A stretch of 64,000 nt of DNA from Gammaproteobacteria bacterium (GTDB taxonomy: Bacteria > Pseudomonadota > Gammaproteobacteria > Steroidobacterales > GCA-2729495). Under the pieces are notes generated by a model. The model was not told the DNA's origin and did no database searches. It saw nothing but the letters and a program-made list of their open reading frames with translations. The translations under genes were made by a program, and so were the position numbers. The stretch's first letter is position 1; every line of letters begins with the position of its first letter. The stretch spans positions 1 through 64,000 of the forward strand of contig JANQPY010000047.1 of NCBI GenBank assembly GCA_028285245.1, given 5' to 3'. Below are positions 8,179-39,000 of this stretch, in pieces.

Positions 8179-8883
<705 letters not shown>

Positions 8884-9348
8884 ATGGTCCGGCAGCGAAA
8901 GCGGCGGCTGATGGGCGAGATAAACGTAGTCCCGTACATTGATGTCATGTTGGTGCTGCTGATTATTTTCATGATCACGGCGCCGTTGCTGACTCAGGGC
9001 ATCGAGGTCGACTTGCCAAAGGCCGCGGCCGAAGCGCTCGACCCGGACCTGACGAGCGACAATGAGCCACTGATCTTGTCCGTCGATGCAGCAGGTCAGC
9101 TCTATTTGAATGTCGGCGATGACGAAGAGAGTCCGCAGACGGAGCAAACCATTCTCAGCCTGGCCAGGGCGGTTATTCGCCGCCAGCCGGCAACTCCGGT
9201 CTTGGTAAAGGCCGACCAGGCCGTTGACTATGGCCGCGTGGTTTTGGCCATGGTCTTGCTCCAGCAGGCAGGTGCGGCAAAAGTTGGCTTTCTCACAGAT
9301 CCGGCCGAATTGGACGCCGCCAGGGCCGTTATCGCCGAGGAGAGCTAA
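8884..9348 (+). CDS. tolR: Tol-Pal system protein TolR
   Basis: ExbD/TolR family partner of TolQ. It has a short cytoplasmic N-terminus, one membrane helix (about 19-37) with the essential Asp20 in PYIDVMLVLL, and a periplasmic domain. 154 residues is slightly longer than the common 140-150; the extra length is in an acidic loop (GDDEESPQTEQ). Its start immediately follows the tolQ stop, so the two are likely translated together. Confidence 0.95.
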   Translation: MVRQRKRRLMGEINVVPYIDVMLVLLIIFMITAPLLTQGIEVDLPKAAAEALDPDLTSDNEPLILSVDAAGQLYLNVGDDEESPQTEQTILSLARAVIRRQPATPVLVKADQAVDYGRVVLAMVLLQQAGAAKVGFLTDPAELDAARAVIAEES

Positions 9349-29971: not shown

Positions 29972-31411
29972 CTAGGCGGCAGTCTTGCCGCGGCTGTTGC
30001 CGAGGTAATCCTCGAGGCGAATCTCATCAGCGCCCGGCGTGATGGGACGCACGAGCTTGTCGACGTCGTCTAAGTCCATGGTCGCATCGATGCCAATTCG
30101 GACTGACTTTTGGCCCTCTTTCGCGGCTCGTTCAAGCTCCCAGCTTTGCACATCAGGGATAACCATGAACTTGTGCTCAGTCGCCGCCCGGTTCCATATC
30201 GCCCACTGGACATCGTCCATGCTATGTACGTCGATATCGCTGTCCACCACAATCACTCGTTTGGTGATCATGCTCATCGGAAAGATATGCCCGCCGCCCG
30301 CGAAGGCCTTATCGATAATCTCTTTCGGCTGACCGTCGTTGACTTTGTTGATGGACACGACCACATGCGCGAGGGTCCCCAGGCCGGGCGACATGTACAC
30401 ATGAATATCTTCGATTTGTCCCGGCAGGGCCTCGCGCAGCGCGGCTTCAATGCTGCGCTGGACGCCATAGACGGCGACGTTGCCTAGCGTGTTGTGCTCC
30501 GGGTTGCGCCCGGCCATTATTGTGTAGAAGTAGGGGTCAGGCCGGTGTGTGATGGCGGTTACCTCAGTCGCAGGTGCAGTCTCAGGCCCATACTGCCCGG
30601 CAAATTCTCCCAAGAGATTCTCAACGCGCTCGCCAAAGTCCACCTGGCCCTCGATAATAAACTCGGCGTTGGCAGGGACCAGAAGGTCACTCGTGATGCA
30701 GCGAGCGAGCTCCATTGGCCGACCCTGCAACCCACCGGCCATCTCATACTCGCAGTGATCTGGCGGCAACTTACACGCCGCGGCTGTCAGCATCGCCGGA
30801 TCCACCCCAATTGCCAGAGCAATCGGCATGACCTCACCGCGTTCCTGCGCCGATGCATAGTGGCGGCGCAAGTCACTGAGCGAACTGGCATTAATCACGA
30901 AGCGCCTGGGGCCAAGGATCAGTGTGCGGTAGACGCCGACATTCTGTACGCCGGTCTCCGGGTTCCGCGTCGTGCCGATGGCCGCGGTAATGAAAGGCCC
31001 GCTATCGAGCTCAAAAAAAGTCGGCACAGGCAGATCATGCAGGTTGATGTCAGCTCCCTGGATAACGACGCTCTGGCTCGGCGCGTTGTCCACGGTCTGA
31101 GGCTTCAGCGCATGCGCCTTGGCTTTCTCCAGAAGCCCATCAAAAGCCGGGTCATCAAAATGCTCCTCTGCACGCGGATACCCCAAAGCCATACCGAAGC
31201 GTTCAAGCTTGTTGAGCAGGCCACCCAGAGCCGGAAACCTGGCGCCACGCACATTCTCAAAGATGAATGCCTTGCGCTCTTTCTCGAGCGCCGCCATAAC
31301 AGCCGCCATCTCATACTTAGGGTCAACTTCCCGCGCTATACGCACCAGCTCGCCGCGGCTCTCGAGCAGCGCCACGAAAGAACGGAGATCCTGCACACGT
31401 GAATCCTGCAT
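29972..31411 (-). CDS. UbiD-family prFMN-dependent decarboxylase (1)
   Basis: Member of the UbiD family, which reversibly (de)carboxylates aromatic and unsaturated acids with prenylated FMN. 479 residues from the ATG at 31411 (GGAA nine bases upstream; a TTG lies one codon earlier). Residues matching the active-site Arg-Glu-Glu of fungal Fdc1 are present: Arg162 in VGVYRTL, and Glu264 and Glu269 in the E-x4-E of VENLLGEF. The C-terminal part DVDSDIDVHSMDDVQWAIWNR fits the family's oligomer interface. It is only about 40% like UbiD2 in pattern, so the two are not recent copies. No ubiX is in the window. Confidence 0.92.
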   Translation of the reverse strand: MQDSRVQDLRSFVALLESRGELVRIAREVDPKYEMAAVMAALEKERKAFIFENVRGARFPALGGLLNKLERFGMALGYPRAEEHFDDPAFDGLLEKAKAHALKPQTVDNAPSQSVVIQGADINLHDLPVPTFFELDSGPFITAAIGTTRNPETGVQNVGVYRTLILGPRRFVINASSLSDLRRHYASAQERGEVMPIALAIGVDPAMLTAAACKLPPDHCEYEMAGGLQGRPMELARCITSDLLVPANAEFIIEGQVDFGERVENLLGEFAGQYGPETAPATEVTAITHRPDPYFYTIMAGRNPEHNTLGNVAVYGVQRSIEAALREALPGQIEDIHVYMSPGLGTLAHVVVSINKVNDGQPKEIIDKAFAGGGHIFPMSMITKRVIVVDSDIDVHSMDDVQWAIWNRAATEHKFMVIPDVQSWELERAAKEGQKSVRIGIDATMDLDDVDKLVRPITPGADEIRLEDYLGNSRGKTAA

Positions 31412-31849
31412 CAACTTAACTTCCGCCGTTAAACAGCGCGTAGTTTAGTGGGGACGCTTCAATGCCGTTTGAGCTTGCGGCCGGGCGACCACGCAAAGGG
31501 CACCGCACAGCGAAGTGTGGAGTGGCAGGGTGCGCAGTGGCCCGCATACCGGTAGTCCGGATTAGGCACATAAAACCTGGATAAATACTATAAAACAATA
31601 CTTTATAGTCTATTCAGAGAATATTTCTAGACTATCATCGGGCTTCAGCGCCTGCCTGTCGCGGTCACTGGAGGCTCCCCGGTTCGGCAACCCGACTGCC
31701 TGCACCAGGGGCTGCGCCAGCCAAGCCCGGTCGCGGCGCAACACCTTTGCGCCTCAAGGCACGCTGCCCGCGAAGTGGCCGGGCCTGCGGCAGGGTTTCG
31801 TCAACCATCGACCGGACGGTAATCTGCAGGCCCGACATGCAGGTGAACC
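31412..31849. other. Intergenic region between divergent UbiD and membrane-protein genes
   Basis: 438 bases without a gene. The part at about 31570-31640 is strikingly AT-rich in this GC-rich DNA and holds the palindrome described separately, plus several TATAAT-like hexamers on both strands, so it probably carries both divergent promoters. The remainder (31640-31849) is GC-rich and I see no RNA gene or further repeat in it, apart from the ribosome-binding site (AGGTG, 31841-31845) of the next gene. Confidence 0.5.
31587..31609. promoter_or_regulatory. AT-rich palindrome, candidate operator
   Basis: A perfect inverted repeat, ACTATAAA (31587-31594) and TTTATAGT (31602-31609), separated by seven bases. 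It lies 176 bases upstream of the UbiD gene and about 240 upstream of the divergent membrane-protein gene. Size and symmetry suit a dimeric transcription regulator; no regulator gene lies next to it. Seen directly; the function is inference. Confidence 0.45.
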
Positions 31850-33345: not shown

Positions 33346-34110
33346 TCAATGTGCCGCCAAAGGCGTCATTAAGTGTGTGCGAATCTCACTGTAAACCGGG
33401 TCACTGACCAGCCGGCGCACCCCCTTCCAGGCGCGTTGGTCGAGCTCCTCTGAAAAAAAGCAGCCGAGGTGGCGCTGGTCACGAGCGATGAGCAACTCAT
33501 GGTCTGGAGTGGGGTAGGCGAGCGTCCTGGGCAACTCCAGGTAGTGGTCGAGGTAAAGCCTGATTTGTTTTCCCACTCGCTCGAGTTCTGCCTGATCAGT
33601 CGGGCGGCTGGCGCCGATGCTGTACGGCGACAAGTAGGCCGCAATCGCTGGATTGCCGGGTGCAGAAGCGCAGGCGTTTCCAGCGGTCTGCGTTGCCTGC
33701 CAATAAGCCTTTGTGATGGGTGCAAACACCGATGCGTAGTAGTCAGGGTGATCCACCGGATCCAAACGAGGAATCAGGTCAGCGTTGTAAATGCAGGCGT
33801 CTTCGCCGAATTGCACCGTTTGCGCGTGAAAGTGGGGCATCACCGAGTCACTGCGGCCGAACACGAACATCAGCTGGGTATCGGCCGGGTCACCCCGCAA
33901 ACGGAGATGGATCATGCGGTCAATGACGCCGTGACCAGACCACAACCGCAAGAACCCCGCGTCGGCGCCCGTGTCCCGGTGGCTCAGCATCAGCCGCGGC
34001 CCGCCATCCACCGTTTGTTCATCAAACGGGTAGGCCGCGAGACAGCCAGCGACCAATTCGCTGACGAACCTCAACCCAAATGCCCCAGTCTCCATAACGC
34101 GCGCGAGCAT
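33346..34110 (-). CDS. Ferredoxin-dependent bilin reductase-fold protein (2)
   Basis: Protein of 254 residues, a second likely member of the bilin reductase superfamily. DRMIHLRLRG (64-73), LMFVFGRSD (80-88), MPHFHAQTV (91-99) and IYNADLIPRLD (107-117) follow the order of HLELAKVG, VMFPEP, LPLFGCDIV and AAIADLSP in PcyA. The C-terminal RDQRHLGCFFSEELDQRAWKGV resembles the family's last helices. Gln97 occupies the place of the catalytic Asp; His93 and His95 are nearby. It resembles the protein at 23772 only in the same blocks. It is divergent from the riboflavin kinase fusion and next to the epimerase-like gene. Reductase activity is uncertain. Confidence 0.65.
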   Translation of the reverse strand: MLARVMETGAFGLRFVSELVAGCLAAYPFDEQTVDGGPRLMLSHRDTGADAGFLRLWSGHGVIDRMIHLRLRGDPADTQLMFVFGRSDSVMPHFHAQTVQFGEDACIYNADLIPRLDPVDHPDYYASVFAPITKAYWQATQTAGNACASAPGNPAIAAYLSPYSIGASRPTDQAELERVGKQIRLYLDHYLELPRTLAYPTPDHELLIARDQRHLGCFFSEELDQRAWKGVRRLVSDPVYSEIRTHLMTPLAAH

Positions 34111-34173: not shown

Positions 34174-35226
34174 ATGCTGGGCAAGCCTATAACCGGGCGA
34201 GTAGTCCGTGGGCTTGGCCGGGGTGCTCAGTTCACTGTCCTGCCGTGGGTTGCGCAATCACTCCATGCGGAGTTTGGCATCGCACCGTTTCCAGGGACCC
34301 TGAACGTCGTCCTCAACTCGAACCATGCCTTGGCCGAATGGGCACAAGCCCGGCAACGACCCGCCGCCAGCCTGACGGATCCCGATGGGGTGGCCTGCGC
34401 GGCCCAGTGCTATCCGGTACGCATCAATGCATGGCTGCCCGGGGTCGTGGTGCGCCCCCTGGTGGAGGGTTATCCTGACACGCAGCTCGAGATTGTTGCC
34501 GCCGTAGGCCTGCGTGAAACTGCGGAGCTCACAGACGGCGATGAGGTTGGCATTGAATTCGGGCACCCGACAGAGTTGTCCGCCGTGATATTTGATGTCG
34601 ATGGCACCCTCCTGAACTCCGTCGATGCATACCACATCGCCGCGGGCCAAGCCGCCGCCCCGCACGGGTTCTCAGTTTCACGAGACCAGATCATGGCGGC
34701 GTTGACCTCAGGTCAGCCGTTCTGGGAGATGATTCTGCCGGAACACCAACGCCACGATGAGTCGCTGATTCGCAACTTGCGCGATGCCACGCTTGAACAT
34801 TGGCCCGACGTACTATCCAGGCACGTTACTTTATTCGCACGCTGCGAAGAGACGCTCGACCACCTCCGTCTGGCCGGCCTGCGCCTTGCCATCTACACGG
34901 GCTCTCGCGGAGAGTCGTTTGCTCCGCTGCAAGACGCCGGCTTGCTCGACCGATTCGAGTGCATCGTCACGGCCAAGGACGTGACAGCCGGTAAGCCCGA
35001 TCCAGAGGGTATTGACCGCGTGCTCGGTCATCTGGGTCTTGACCCGAACGCCGCCGCCTATGTCGGCGACTCGCCGCAGGATATGCAGGCGGCAAACGCG
35101 GCCGGTGTGATGGGTGTCGGCGTGCTGACCGGCGTGGGCACTGCGGCCAACCTGTCGACGGCGGGCGCCAGCCGGCTGGCGCGCGGACTGAGCGATCTGG
35201 AGAAGCTATTTACTATAAAACAGTAA
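34174..35226 (+). CDS. CTP-type riboflavin kinase (DUF120) domain fused to HAD phosphatase
   Basis: Two-domain protein of 350 residues from the ATG at 34174; the frame runs open far upstream, but that part is antisense to the previous gene. Residues 1-130 match archaeal RibK, a CTP-dependent riboflavin kinase: TGRVVRGLGRGAQF (7-20), FPGTLNVVLN (39-48), YPVRIN (80-85), VRPLVEGYP (93-101) and LTDGDEVGIEF. Residues 136-345 are a HAD subfamily IA hydrolase: nucleophile Asp141 and Asp143 (FDVDGTLLNS), Thr242 (YTGS), Lys274 (GKPDPEG), Asp299 and Asp303 (GDSPQD). It lies between two UbiD genes, whose cofactor derives from FMN. A role in FMN or prenyl-FMN supply is inference. Convergent with UbiD2, four bases apart. 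Confidence 0.85.
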   Translation: MLGKPITGRVVRGLGRGAQFTVLPWVAQSLHAEFGIAPFPGTLNVVLNSNHALAEWAQARQRPAASLTDPDGVACAAQCYPVRINAWLPGVVVRPLVEGYPDTQLEIVAAVGLRETAELTDGDEVGIEFGHPTELSAVIFDVDGTLLNSVDAYHIAAGQAAAPHGFSVSRDQIMAALTSGQPFWEMILPEHQRHDESLIRNLRDATLEHWPDVLSRHVTLFARCEETLDHLRLAGLRLAIYTGSRGESFAPLQDAGLLDRFECIVTAKDVTAGKPDPEGIDRVLGHLGLDPNAAAYVGDSPQDMQAANAAGVMGVGVLTGVGTAANLSTAGASRLARGLSDLEKLFTIKQ

Positions 35227-35230
35227 GTTA

Positions 35231-36760
35231 CTAGCTATTTCTCGAACTAGGATTATTTTTCCAATGCTTGAAGTATTCGGCCCAGCGCGCGTCAACCAGA
35301 GCCGCTGTGTCGGGACTATCTCGATTAAGAATGACCCGCGAGACGTCCGGCCACTCGGCCGGTCCGCCTTCGACGGGCCATTGCCGGGTCGCGTCAATCA
35401 CAATCTTGCTGGTCAGCCAACGTTGCGGCGCACTGGGATCCAGCGGCATGCCTTTGGTCTGCGCAACAATGCTGGCCGCCGGCGACGGTTGCCAGCGTGT
35501 CCCCAGCGCGTGAAAGACCTGCGTTTTGTCGTGTATATCGATGTCTTCGTCAACCACGATCACAACCTTGCCAAAGATATCTGCGGCGGCGATCTGTTGT
35601 CCTGCCGCCATGCCTTCGCCCGGTACCCGTTTGCGGATACTCGCGATGACTACGCCGGTGGTCTCGGTTGGCCGGAAGAACTCTACGAGGCTGGGAATGG
35701 TTTTCCGGTAGTTAAGGTTGTTGGTCACCAGCTGGGGGATCCCCATAGTGAGTTTGGTGATGCCGGCAAATGAATTAATCACCCAGGGATCCCGGCGGTG
35801 CGAGACCGCCTCGATGGTCATGTAAAAGTTCTCCGGCTTTGGCTTGCCCATGTAACCGTAGACTTCTCCGTATGGCCCCTCGGGCTCCAGGTCCTCGAGT
35901 TCGATATGTCCCTCGAGGACGATCTCAGCGTGAGCAGGAACCTTGATATGACTTGTCTCACAGGGAACGAGCTCTACCGGCCGGCCTCTTAACCCTCCGG
36001 CGATATCAAGCTCATCCTCGCCCATACCAGCCATCTTTGAGGTGCTGAGCGCGAACGTGATCGGATCGGCGCCCATCACCACGGCGGCGGGCAAACGGCG
36101 CTCGCCACGCTTCTTGACCCGCATGAAGTAATTCCAGGCGTGCTGGCCAATCTCTGCATTGACGCCGATCTTCCGGGGACCCTTGACCTGGCAACGGTAC
36201 GTGCCAACGTTCCGCCCGAGCTCAGGGTCCTCCACCATGACGCTGGCCGCCGTGATGTAGCGGCCTGCATCGCCCGGATTGGTCTGGATCCAGGGCAGGT
36301 CGAGAATATTGACCTCGTCTCCCGTGTGGATGACTTCCTTGCAGGGCGCCGCGGCGCTGGCTACGTCAACAGGCTGGATACGCGGCCATTCCCCGGTAGC
36401 GTCGAGCCGCTGCTCGAGATGCGTAAACGTCTGTCGGAACAGCGCGCGCTGGTTGCCGCGAGGATTGGGTACGCCGTAGGCGAGTGCCTCGCTGTGCCAA
36501 CCGCCGTACACATTGCCGAGGAGCGGTCCCTCAAGCCACCTGCCATCCACCTTTACACGCTCAATCAGGAACGCCGGAGCATCGTCGTAGCCGAATTCTT
36601 CGATGAGACGATAGGCGAATCCAGTCGCTTCGAATTGATCCTGGTCCATGGCGTCAATACGCAGCAGCTTGCCGAGTGCATCCAGCGCAGCCACGTAGTC
36701 GCGCAGTGAATCAAAGGGTCCGTATTCGACGGCGGGTTCGGAGGGGGCGGGGCGATTCAT
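35231..36760 (-). CDS. UbiD-family prFMN-dependent decarboxylase (2)
   Basis: Second UbiD-family protein, 509 residues. The active-site set is complete: Arg189 in VGTYRCQVKGPRK, and Glu294 and Glu299 in PEGPYGEVYGY, the arrangement seen in Fdc1-type and aromatic-acid decarboxylases. ELDIAGGLRGRPVELVPCETSHIKVPAHAEIVLEG is a strong family block. It acts on an unknown aromatic or enoic acid. The start codon faces the SDR gene on the other strand. It is clearly different from UbiD1, so the pair probably acts on different substrates or at different steps. Confidence 0.94.
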   Translation of the reverse strand: MNRPAPSEPAVEYGPFDSLRDYVAALDALGKLLRIDAMDQDQFEATGFAYRLIEEFGYDDAPAFLIERVKVDGRWLEGPLLGNVYGGWHSEALAYGVPNPRGNQRALFRQTFTHLEQRLDATGEWPRIQPVDVASAAAPCKEVIHTGDEVNILDLPWIQTNPGDAGRYITAASVMVEDPELGRNVGTYRCQVKGPRKIGVNAEIGQHAWNYFMRVKKRGERRLPAAVVMGADPITFALSTSKMAGMGEDELDIAGGLRGRPVELVPCETSHIKVPAHAEIVLEGHIELEDLEPEGPYGEVYGYMGKPKPENFYMTIEAVSHRRDPWVINSFAGITKLTMGIPQLVTNNLNYRKTIPSLVEFFRPTETTGVVIASIRKRVPGEGMAAGQQIAAADIFGKVVIVVDEDIDIHDKTQVFHALGTRWQPSPAASIVAQTKGMPLDPSAPQRWLTSKIVIDATRQWPVEGGPAEWPDVSRVILNRDSPDTAALVDARWAEYFKHWKNNPSSRNS

Positions 36761-37791: not shown

Positions 37792-39000
37792 CTAAATGAT
37801 CCCCTCGTCGGCGAGCTTGCTCAATTGCTCTGGGCTCATCTCCAGCAGGCCTGCGTAGATTTCCTGGTTGTGAGCCCCCACCTCGGCGCCCGGCCAGTCG
37901 GTGCGGCCAGGTGTGTCACTCATCCGCGGGATAATTGCTGGAATCTTCAGCGGTTCGCCGGCCACGTCGACCTCTTCAAACATGCCCCTTGCCTGGTAGT
38001 GGGGATCTTCCAGCATGTCTGCCACGCTGTAGATCGGGCCGCAAGGCACCCGAGCCTCCTCTAAGGTCTCGATCAACTCGTCTGAAGTGAAGGTTTTCGT
38101 CCAGGCCTCAATAATCTCGTCAAGCTCTTTTTCATGCTCCACGCGCCCGGCGTTGTCTTCCAGGCGCGGATCTTCGGCCAGATCGGGCCGGTCCATCGCA
38201 TGTGCCAGCCGCTTGAAAATCGAATCGCCATTGGCGCCAATGATTACGTACTTACCGTCGCTACAGCGGTAGGTGTTGGTCGGCACAATGCCGGTGAGGG
38301 TTGAGCCGGACGGTTCGCGCACCACGCCGGCACCGTCATACTCAGGCACCACGCCCTCAAGCAGGTTGAACACTGCTTCGTATAACGCCGTATCGATTAC
38401 CTGGCCTCGGTTACCCGCGTCTTTTTGTCGATGGATAATCGCCATGAGAATGCCCATGAAAGAGTGCATGCCGGCCAGCGTGTCACCAATGCTCAAATTT
38501 GGCCGAACCGGTGCTTCATCAGGAAACCCGTTGACGTAGCGGAAACCACCAAAGCCCTCGCAAACCGAAGCAAATCCGGGTTTGGTAGCGTATGGCCCCG
38601 TCTGTCCATAACCCGAGATCCGGGCGTAGATCAGGCCAGGATTTTTGGCCCGCATCTCATCCGGACCCAATCCCCATTTCTCCATCGTGCCCGGACGAAA
38701 GTTCTCAATCACCACATCGGCTTTCTCGATGAGCTGGCGCACGATATCGCGGCCCTCGTCGGTGCGCAGATTCGCGGTGACACATTTCTTATTGCGGGCG
38801 AGACTGCTCCACCACAGCGCCGTACCGTCGCGCAGAATTCGCCATTTGCGAATCGGGTCGCCCTCACCGGGCGTCTCAACCTTGATAACTTCTGCGCCGA
38901 AATAACCGAGCAGGTGACCAGTGAATGGTCCGGCCAACAGCTGGCCTACCTCGATGACGCGAATCCCGTCCAGCGGACGCGGGCTGTGTTGCTTACTCAT
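37792..39000 (-). CDS. Class III (CaiB/BaiF) CoA transferase
   Basis: CoA transferase of 402 residues that would move CoA between organic acids. The start GIRVIEVGQLLAGPFTGHLLGYFGAEVIKVE is the family block; FRPGTMEKWGL and GYGQTGPYATKPGF follow. The catalytic Asp is Asp173 in NLSIGDTLAGMH. Members include formyl-CoA, succinyl-CoA:benzylsuccinate and carnitine-type enzymes. Together with the AMP-forming ligase it gives this region two ways to make CoA esters. The stop is 22 bases from the convergent SDR gene. Confidence 0.94.
   Translation of the reverse strand: MSKQHSPRPLDGIRVIEVGQLLAGPFTGHLLGYFGAEVIKVETPGEGDPIRKWRILRDGTALWWSSLARNKKCVTANLRTDEGRDIVRQLIEKADVVIENFRPGTMEKWGLGPDEMRAKNPGLIYARISGYGQTGPYATKPGFASVCEGFGGFRYVNGFPDEAPVRPNLSIGDTLAGMHSFMGILMAIIHRQKDAGNRGQVIDTALYEAVFNLLEGVVPEYDGAGVVREPSGSTLTGIVPTNTYRCSDGKYVIIGANGDSIFKRLAHAMDRPDLAEDPRLEDNAGRVEHEKELDEIIEAWTKTFTSDELIETLEEARVPCGPIYSVADMLEDPHYQARGMFEEVDVAGEPLKIPAIIPRMSDTPGRTDWPGAEVGAHNQEIYAGLLEMSPEQLSKLADEGII

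Follow-up and report, generated by a model that had tools for sequence, protein, structure and literature searches.

A 350-residue protein encoded in a marine gammaproteobacterial MAG unites an archaeal-type riboflavin kinase (RibK) domain with a HAD phosphatase domain. Judging by its sequence and the genomic contexts of its relatives, we consider it reasonably likely that it functions as a second, FMN-only riboflavin kinase serving mainly the supply of prenylated FMN (prFMN), with its HAD half acting on a phosphate of the flavin pathway. Because relatives in other phyla are fused to or clustered with enzymes that make and use prFMN, the kinase probably feeds this supply.

The RibK–HAD fusion and its kinase domain

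In the window, i.e., the whole 64,000-nucleotide stretch of DNA analyzed here, the fusion occupies a single open frame on the forward strand (34174..35226). A Pfam search of both halves, as the sequence-only reading had proposed, recovers each above its cut-off: the CTP-dependent riboflavin kinase domain PF01982 (DUF120) at residues 10–128 (34201..34557, forward strand; E = 1.7e-25, 89.7 bits against a cut-off of 25) and HAD_2, a phosphatase domain of the C1-cap type, far over its cut-off at residues 138–316 (34585..35121, forward strand; E = 1.2e-29). The HAD motifs are complete, namely D141/D143 (DxDGT), S244, K274 and D299/D303 (GDxxxD), and the fusion of a RibK to a HAD domain with all four motifs intact is thus borne out as first described. 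The ATP-type riboflavin kinase module PF01687 was not detected in the protein by Pfam. We rejected an assembly chimera, as both halves are present in all 14 of the aligned copies from the GTDB family of the window; across these copies the kinase residues T42, N44, G13, G15 and E106 and the HAD motif residues are invariant. A dN/dS of roughly 0.1–0.25 in five close pairs of the fusion indicates purifying selection.

The archaeal affinity of the kinase half is upheld by both sequence and fold. In a phmmer search against solved structures, the N-terminal part matches only the archaeal RibK MJ0056 of M. jannaschii and the Thermoplasma acidophilum kinase RbkR (E about 1e-6), while a profile built from 42 RibK domains of bacteria recovers these two at 5e-24 and 8e-20; they are the only solved structures matched by bacterial RibK. 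The structural models have a pLDDT of 95 for the RibK domain and 90 for the full-length fusion. With Foldseek, the RibK model retrieves 2vbu, 2vbv and 5trd at E-values of 1e-9 to 2e-8 and a TM-score of about 0.8; its best seven matches are all MJ0056 or RbkR, and the next, unrelated one has E = 0.2. The matched structures comprise MJ0056 with CDP, MJ0056 with CDP and FMN, and RbkR with CTP, and the domain is predicted by the model to adopt the cradle-loop barrel fold of MJ0056.

Thus, the window RibK shares with archaeal RibK (MJ0056; PDB 2vbs–2vbv) and RbkR (5trd) the fold, the Mg residues (T42/N44), the GxG loop (G13/G15) and the glutamate (E106). The earlier expectation that the Mg and nucleotide residues are retained holds for these positions but not throughout the nucleotide loop, where the archaeal E and R/K are replaced by R16 and A18; because of these differences, the CTP specificity of the window RibK is not assured. 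The kinase half also stays below the NCBIfam equivalog cut-offs of NF040694 (42 versus 168 bits) and NF010762 (62 versus 279 bits), both of which are models of archaeal proteins. Unlike their archaeal counterparts, the bacterial domains carry two signature residues, W25 (in 42 of 44 bacterial RibKs) and C75 (in 43 of 44), neither of which occurs in the six sequences from archaea. Only one bacterial RibK, L132, lacks both residues, and it groups with the archaea; as the domain is too short for firm branching, we used only the position of L132 in the RibK tree and the signature residues. Further differences from archaeal RibK are the fusion of the window version to a HAD domain and its coexistence with RibF.

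RibF, the bifunctional riboflavin kinase/FAD synthetase, is the enzyme by which bacteria normally convert riboflavin first to FMN and then to FAD. It has the same predicted kinase reaction as RibK, but belongs to a different fold and family (PF01687) and is encoded elsewhere in the genomes that carry the fusion. Since RibF was found in all 19 family genomes checked, RibK is a second kinase. It was likewise found in four outgroup genomes (23 of 23 in total), and we accordingly rejected the idea that RibK substitutes for a lost RibF. By the same token, FMN should not be in short supply in these organisms, which counts against a role in prFMN supply.

Gene neighborhood and distribution in the family

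Two genes for UbiD-family decarboxylases, both full length with the E-x4-E motif present, lie near the fusion on the reverse strand: ubiDb (509 aa; 35231..36760), whose end is 4 bp from that of the fusion gene in a tail-to-tail arrangement, and ubiDa (480 aa; 29972..31414), 2.8 kb away with three genes in between. Hence, while the fusion is indeed flanked by two UbiD genes as originally described, only ubiDb adjoins it. On its other side a conserved 254-aa protein with no significant Pfam match (33346..34110, reverse strand) is transcribed divergently from the fusion; across the family it keeps its position beside ubiDb or the fusion and an epimerase. A class III CoA-transferase (CaiB; 37792..39000, reverse strand) mostly adjoins ubiDb in relatives. 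No rib genes adjoin the fusion in the window, and ubiX is not beside it either: UbiX was found in all 19 family genomes checked, and in this family it is encoded elsewhere in the genome.

PF01982 genes show a narrow distribution, being present in 17 of the 40 genomes of the window's GTDB family, absent from 23 other genomes of the order, and found in only two of 398 genomes sampled from the phylum as a whole. These two are the window's own genome and a weak match (L149, genome G550) in a distant member of Pseudomonadota from another family.

Within the family, 11 genomes encode a ubiDb orthologue (identity of about 60% or above), and eight of these genomes carry the fusion, as compared to nine of the 29 without ubiDb; conversely, nine of the 17 fusion-bearing genomes have no ubiDb orthologue. 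When genome G004 is left out, its negative being uninformative because the contig ends at ubiDb, the association yields a Fisher p of about 0.01 with relatedness ignored. In two genomes (G012 and G028), ubiDb lies directly beside the gene for the 254-aa protein and the fusion is absent. In two others (G014 and G036), a ubiDb relic of 70 residues adjoins the fusion, placed between it and CaiB (L023:9025-9273; L024 near 8686-8895). In yet another genome (G008), two same-strand UbiD genes lie upstream of the fusion. Fusion-bearing family genomes average 5.1 UbiD copies against 2.7 in those lacking it, a difference confounded by the larger size of the former genomes. We therefore rejected a strict dependence of the fusion on ubiDb, as each occurs without the other in relatives; the fusion is an accessory gene in the family and not bound to one particular UbiD. 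The link between the fusion and ubiD in this family is loose. The more specific proposal of a local supply unit between two ubiD genes is accordingly weakened by the tail-to-tail arrangement, by the separate occurrence of each gene and by the placement of UbiX on another contig of the same genome (C40 of G000, the window being on C20).

Bacterial RibK in prFMN-related contexts

The connection to prFMN emerges more clearly outside the family. We used the family alignment to scan the genomes of 84,980 species and carried out phylum surveys, which recovered RibK in 8 of 350 Chloroflexota, 2 of 2 Nitrospinota, 10 of 398 Bacillota and 10 of 396 Acidobacteriota genomes. From four other phyla we obtained 30 usable loci, selected by RibK similarity without regard to context and labeled with the taxa of the deposited records. 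At 13 of these 30, ubiX or ubiD is fused to RibK or lies within 3 kb, against a chance expectation of 0.7–2.5% per locus (assuming 3 to 10 ubiX/ubiD genes per 3 Mb and ignoring relatedness). At the other 17, including all those from Acidobacteriota, neither UbiX nor UbiD was found nearby, with many of the contigs being short. The anticipated genomic association with ubiD and ubiX is hence seen in other phyla but is loose within the window's own family.

The linkages take several forms and arise as fusions or operons in several independent lineages. UbiX and RibK constitute a single chain in Chloroflexota (L043:7374-8408, and L128) and Bacillota (L152:3576-4595; L153:1838-2860). In Nitrospinota, genes for an LpdD-like protein, RibBA, UbiX and RibK follow each other in that order on one strand (L147:4192-7042; L148:6815-9788), uniting a riboflavin entry enzyme, the flavin prenyltransferase, the kinase and a chaperone. 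Elsewhere, again with RibK and its partners on one strand, we observe the orders RibK–UbiX–UbiD (L151) and, as separate genes, LpdD-like–HAD–RibK–UbiD (L041), while a HAD–RibK fusion occurs together with UbiX and RibBA at L126. At two loci (L155 and L157) UbiD precedes a RibK–HAD fusion, likewise on one strand, with gaps of 24 and 43 bp, and an LpdD-like gene and an FMN-dependent dehydrogenase lie upstream. The LpdD-like proteins belong to PF21758, and their profile matches the solved LpdD chains at E = 2e-10; LpdD is a prFMNH2-binding chaperone of UbiD activation (PMC10865409). The UbiX–UbiD systems with LpdD and PhdC likewise group ubiX and ubiD with small accessory genes, and RibK clusters resemble them in that LpdD-like genes occur there too; in the LpdD and PhdC papers, we did not find a riboflavin kinase described as a component. 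Together, the fusions to UbiX and the clusters with UbiX, UbiD, RibBA and LpdD-like genes sustain the tie of the kinase half to prFMN chemistry that had been guessed from the window, a link we did not find in the open-access literature searched.

Some of the neighbors also bear on the substrate of the kinase. A gene resembling the S-component of ECF transporters adjoins RibK at two loci (L159:7309-8154; L156:7465-8034) and may encode a riboflavin importer, although the L159 gene has no NCBIfam match as a riboflavin transporter. With this gene and RibBA as neighbors, RibK would be expected to act on riboflavin and not on a prenyl alcohol. The haloarchaeal RibK genes lie beside or near ribB, which fits a general role of RibK in those organisms. 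At three Bacillota loci a soluble 190-aa family with no significant Pfam match and a conserved cysteine-containing CLPCLE/CVPCLE-like motif is encoded directly downstream of RibK (L155:8338-8910; L157:7964-8539; L158:7551-8120). One further locus (L153:2925-3734) shows an N-terminal piece of UbiD in frame with a C-terminal piece of a HAD domain; the same genome has an intact version in L152, and the joined gene is either a deletion chimera or an assembly error.

The phosphatase half and the proposed role of the fusion

We propose that the RibK half would phosphorylate riboflavin to FMN, with CTP as the predicted donor by homology, and that, unlike RibF, it would stop at FMN, which is what UbiX needs. 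The FMN, presumably delivered to UbiX, would be prenylated to prFMN and handed to the UbiD decarboxylases. The HAD half would dephosphorylate a flavin-pathway phosphate, the likeliest candidates being FMN, spent or oxidized prFMN, or the riboflavin precursor ArPP; action on FMN or on spent or oxidized prFMN would provide turnover and control, as in the kinase/FMN hydrolase fusion of plants. We abandoned naming its function by nearest family, since no specific model was reached (among the matches listed, all specific NCBIfam phosphatase models are below cut-off) and Foldseek returned a mixture of many C1 HADs, none of which gives one clear function.

The suggestion of the sequence-only reading that the HAD half produces DMAP by trimming DMAPP, such that both UbiX substrates would come from one chain, appears highly improbable. 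It could draw on the presence of inorganic pyrophosphatases among the nearest solved HADs, and on the finding that Nudix enzymes of E. coli make DMAP from DMAPP (PMC12359138), a task that a HAD enzyme could perform elsewhere. However, the residue equivalent to position 181 of PaUbiX, which is Phe in the DMAP-specific enzyme, Gln in the DMAPP-specific one of A. niger and His in that of E. coli O157, which takes both (PMC6541611), is Gln in one of the 17 UbiX proteins from the family (G016) and His in the other 16. It is likewise Gln or His, and never Phe, in all linked UbiX proteins. DMAPP should therefore be directly usable, leaving no need for a DMAP-making phosphatase, and action of the HAD half on a flavin-pathway phosphate is the more likely option. 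Joins of RibK to phosphatases point in the same direction: we find a C-terminal HAD with intact DxD in the window and at L039, L175, L155 and L157; an N-terminal HAD with a DxG motif I, which may therefore not be a phosphatase, at L126:6271-7383 and L177:6567-7682, such reversed fusions also occurring at other Acidobacteriota loci; and an N-terminal histidine phosphatase (PF00300) in Bacillota (L154:1999-3051). Several separate joins of this kind argue for a shared logic centered on flavin phosphates.

A precedent not considered in the initial reading is the plant protein AtFHy/RFK, in which a HAD FMN hydrolase is fused to a riboflavin kinase (PMC2972280). Both proteins combine a HAD phosphatase and a riboflavin kinase in one chain, but the plant version has an ATP-type kinase and an N-terminal HAD (PMC2972280), whereas here a kinase of unrelated fold, that of RibK, precedes a C-terminal HAD; the two fusions are convergent and not homologous as fusions. 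The precedent raises the prospect that the window protein is a general bifunctional riboflavin kinase/FMN hydrolase setting the FMN:riboflavin ratio, and that in this lineage it is not specially linked to prFMN. The same activity pair by domain content, the fusions without nearby ubiX or ubiD in Acidobacteriota and several family genomes, and the recurrence of a phosphatase with RibK at L154 all speak for this option, which we nevertheless hold to be fairly unlikely given the repeated fusion and clustering of bacterial RibK with UbiX, UbiD and LpdD-like genes; the doubtful phosphatase status of the L126 and L177 HADs further reduces its support. ArPP phosphatases of riboflavin synthesis are HAD enzymes, and were the HAD half one of them, two steps from riboflavin synthesis to FMN would be joined, with prFMN as one consumer. 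In both Nitrospinota and Chloroflexota, RibBA is indeed a neighbor of RibK and UbiX, but the RibBA–UbiX–RibK operons themselves contain no HAD, and neither the absence of adjoining rib genes in the window nor the below-cut-off scores of the HAD domain favor this proposal, making it quite improbable.

Within the preferred reading of a kinase serving prFMN supply, a more specific and speculative version, to which we give only a small chance, is that the W25/C75 clade would be a dedicated prFMN-pathway kinase and the fused HAD a prFMN turnover enzyme. The latter would dephosphorylate spent or oxidized prenylated flavin so that UbiD could be recharged, with RibK restoring FMN or re-phosphorylating salvaged (prenyl)riboflavin. 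We know of no earlier cofactor repair or salvage activity for the prFMN system, and this would, if true, be the first. UbiD enzymes, which catalyze aromatic and ubiquinone decarboxylations, also serve in biocatalysis, and their activity there is limited by the supply of prFMN. A dedicated kinase making FMN only would contribute a further step to this supply, one that can be named and tested. A role in prFMN metabolism would also explain why some bacteria have kept an archaeal-type riboflavin kinase despite possessing RibF.
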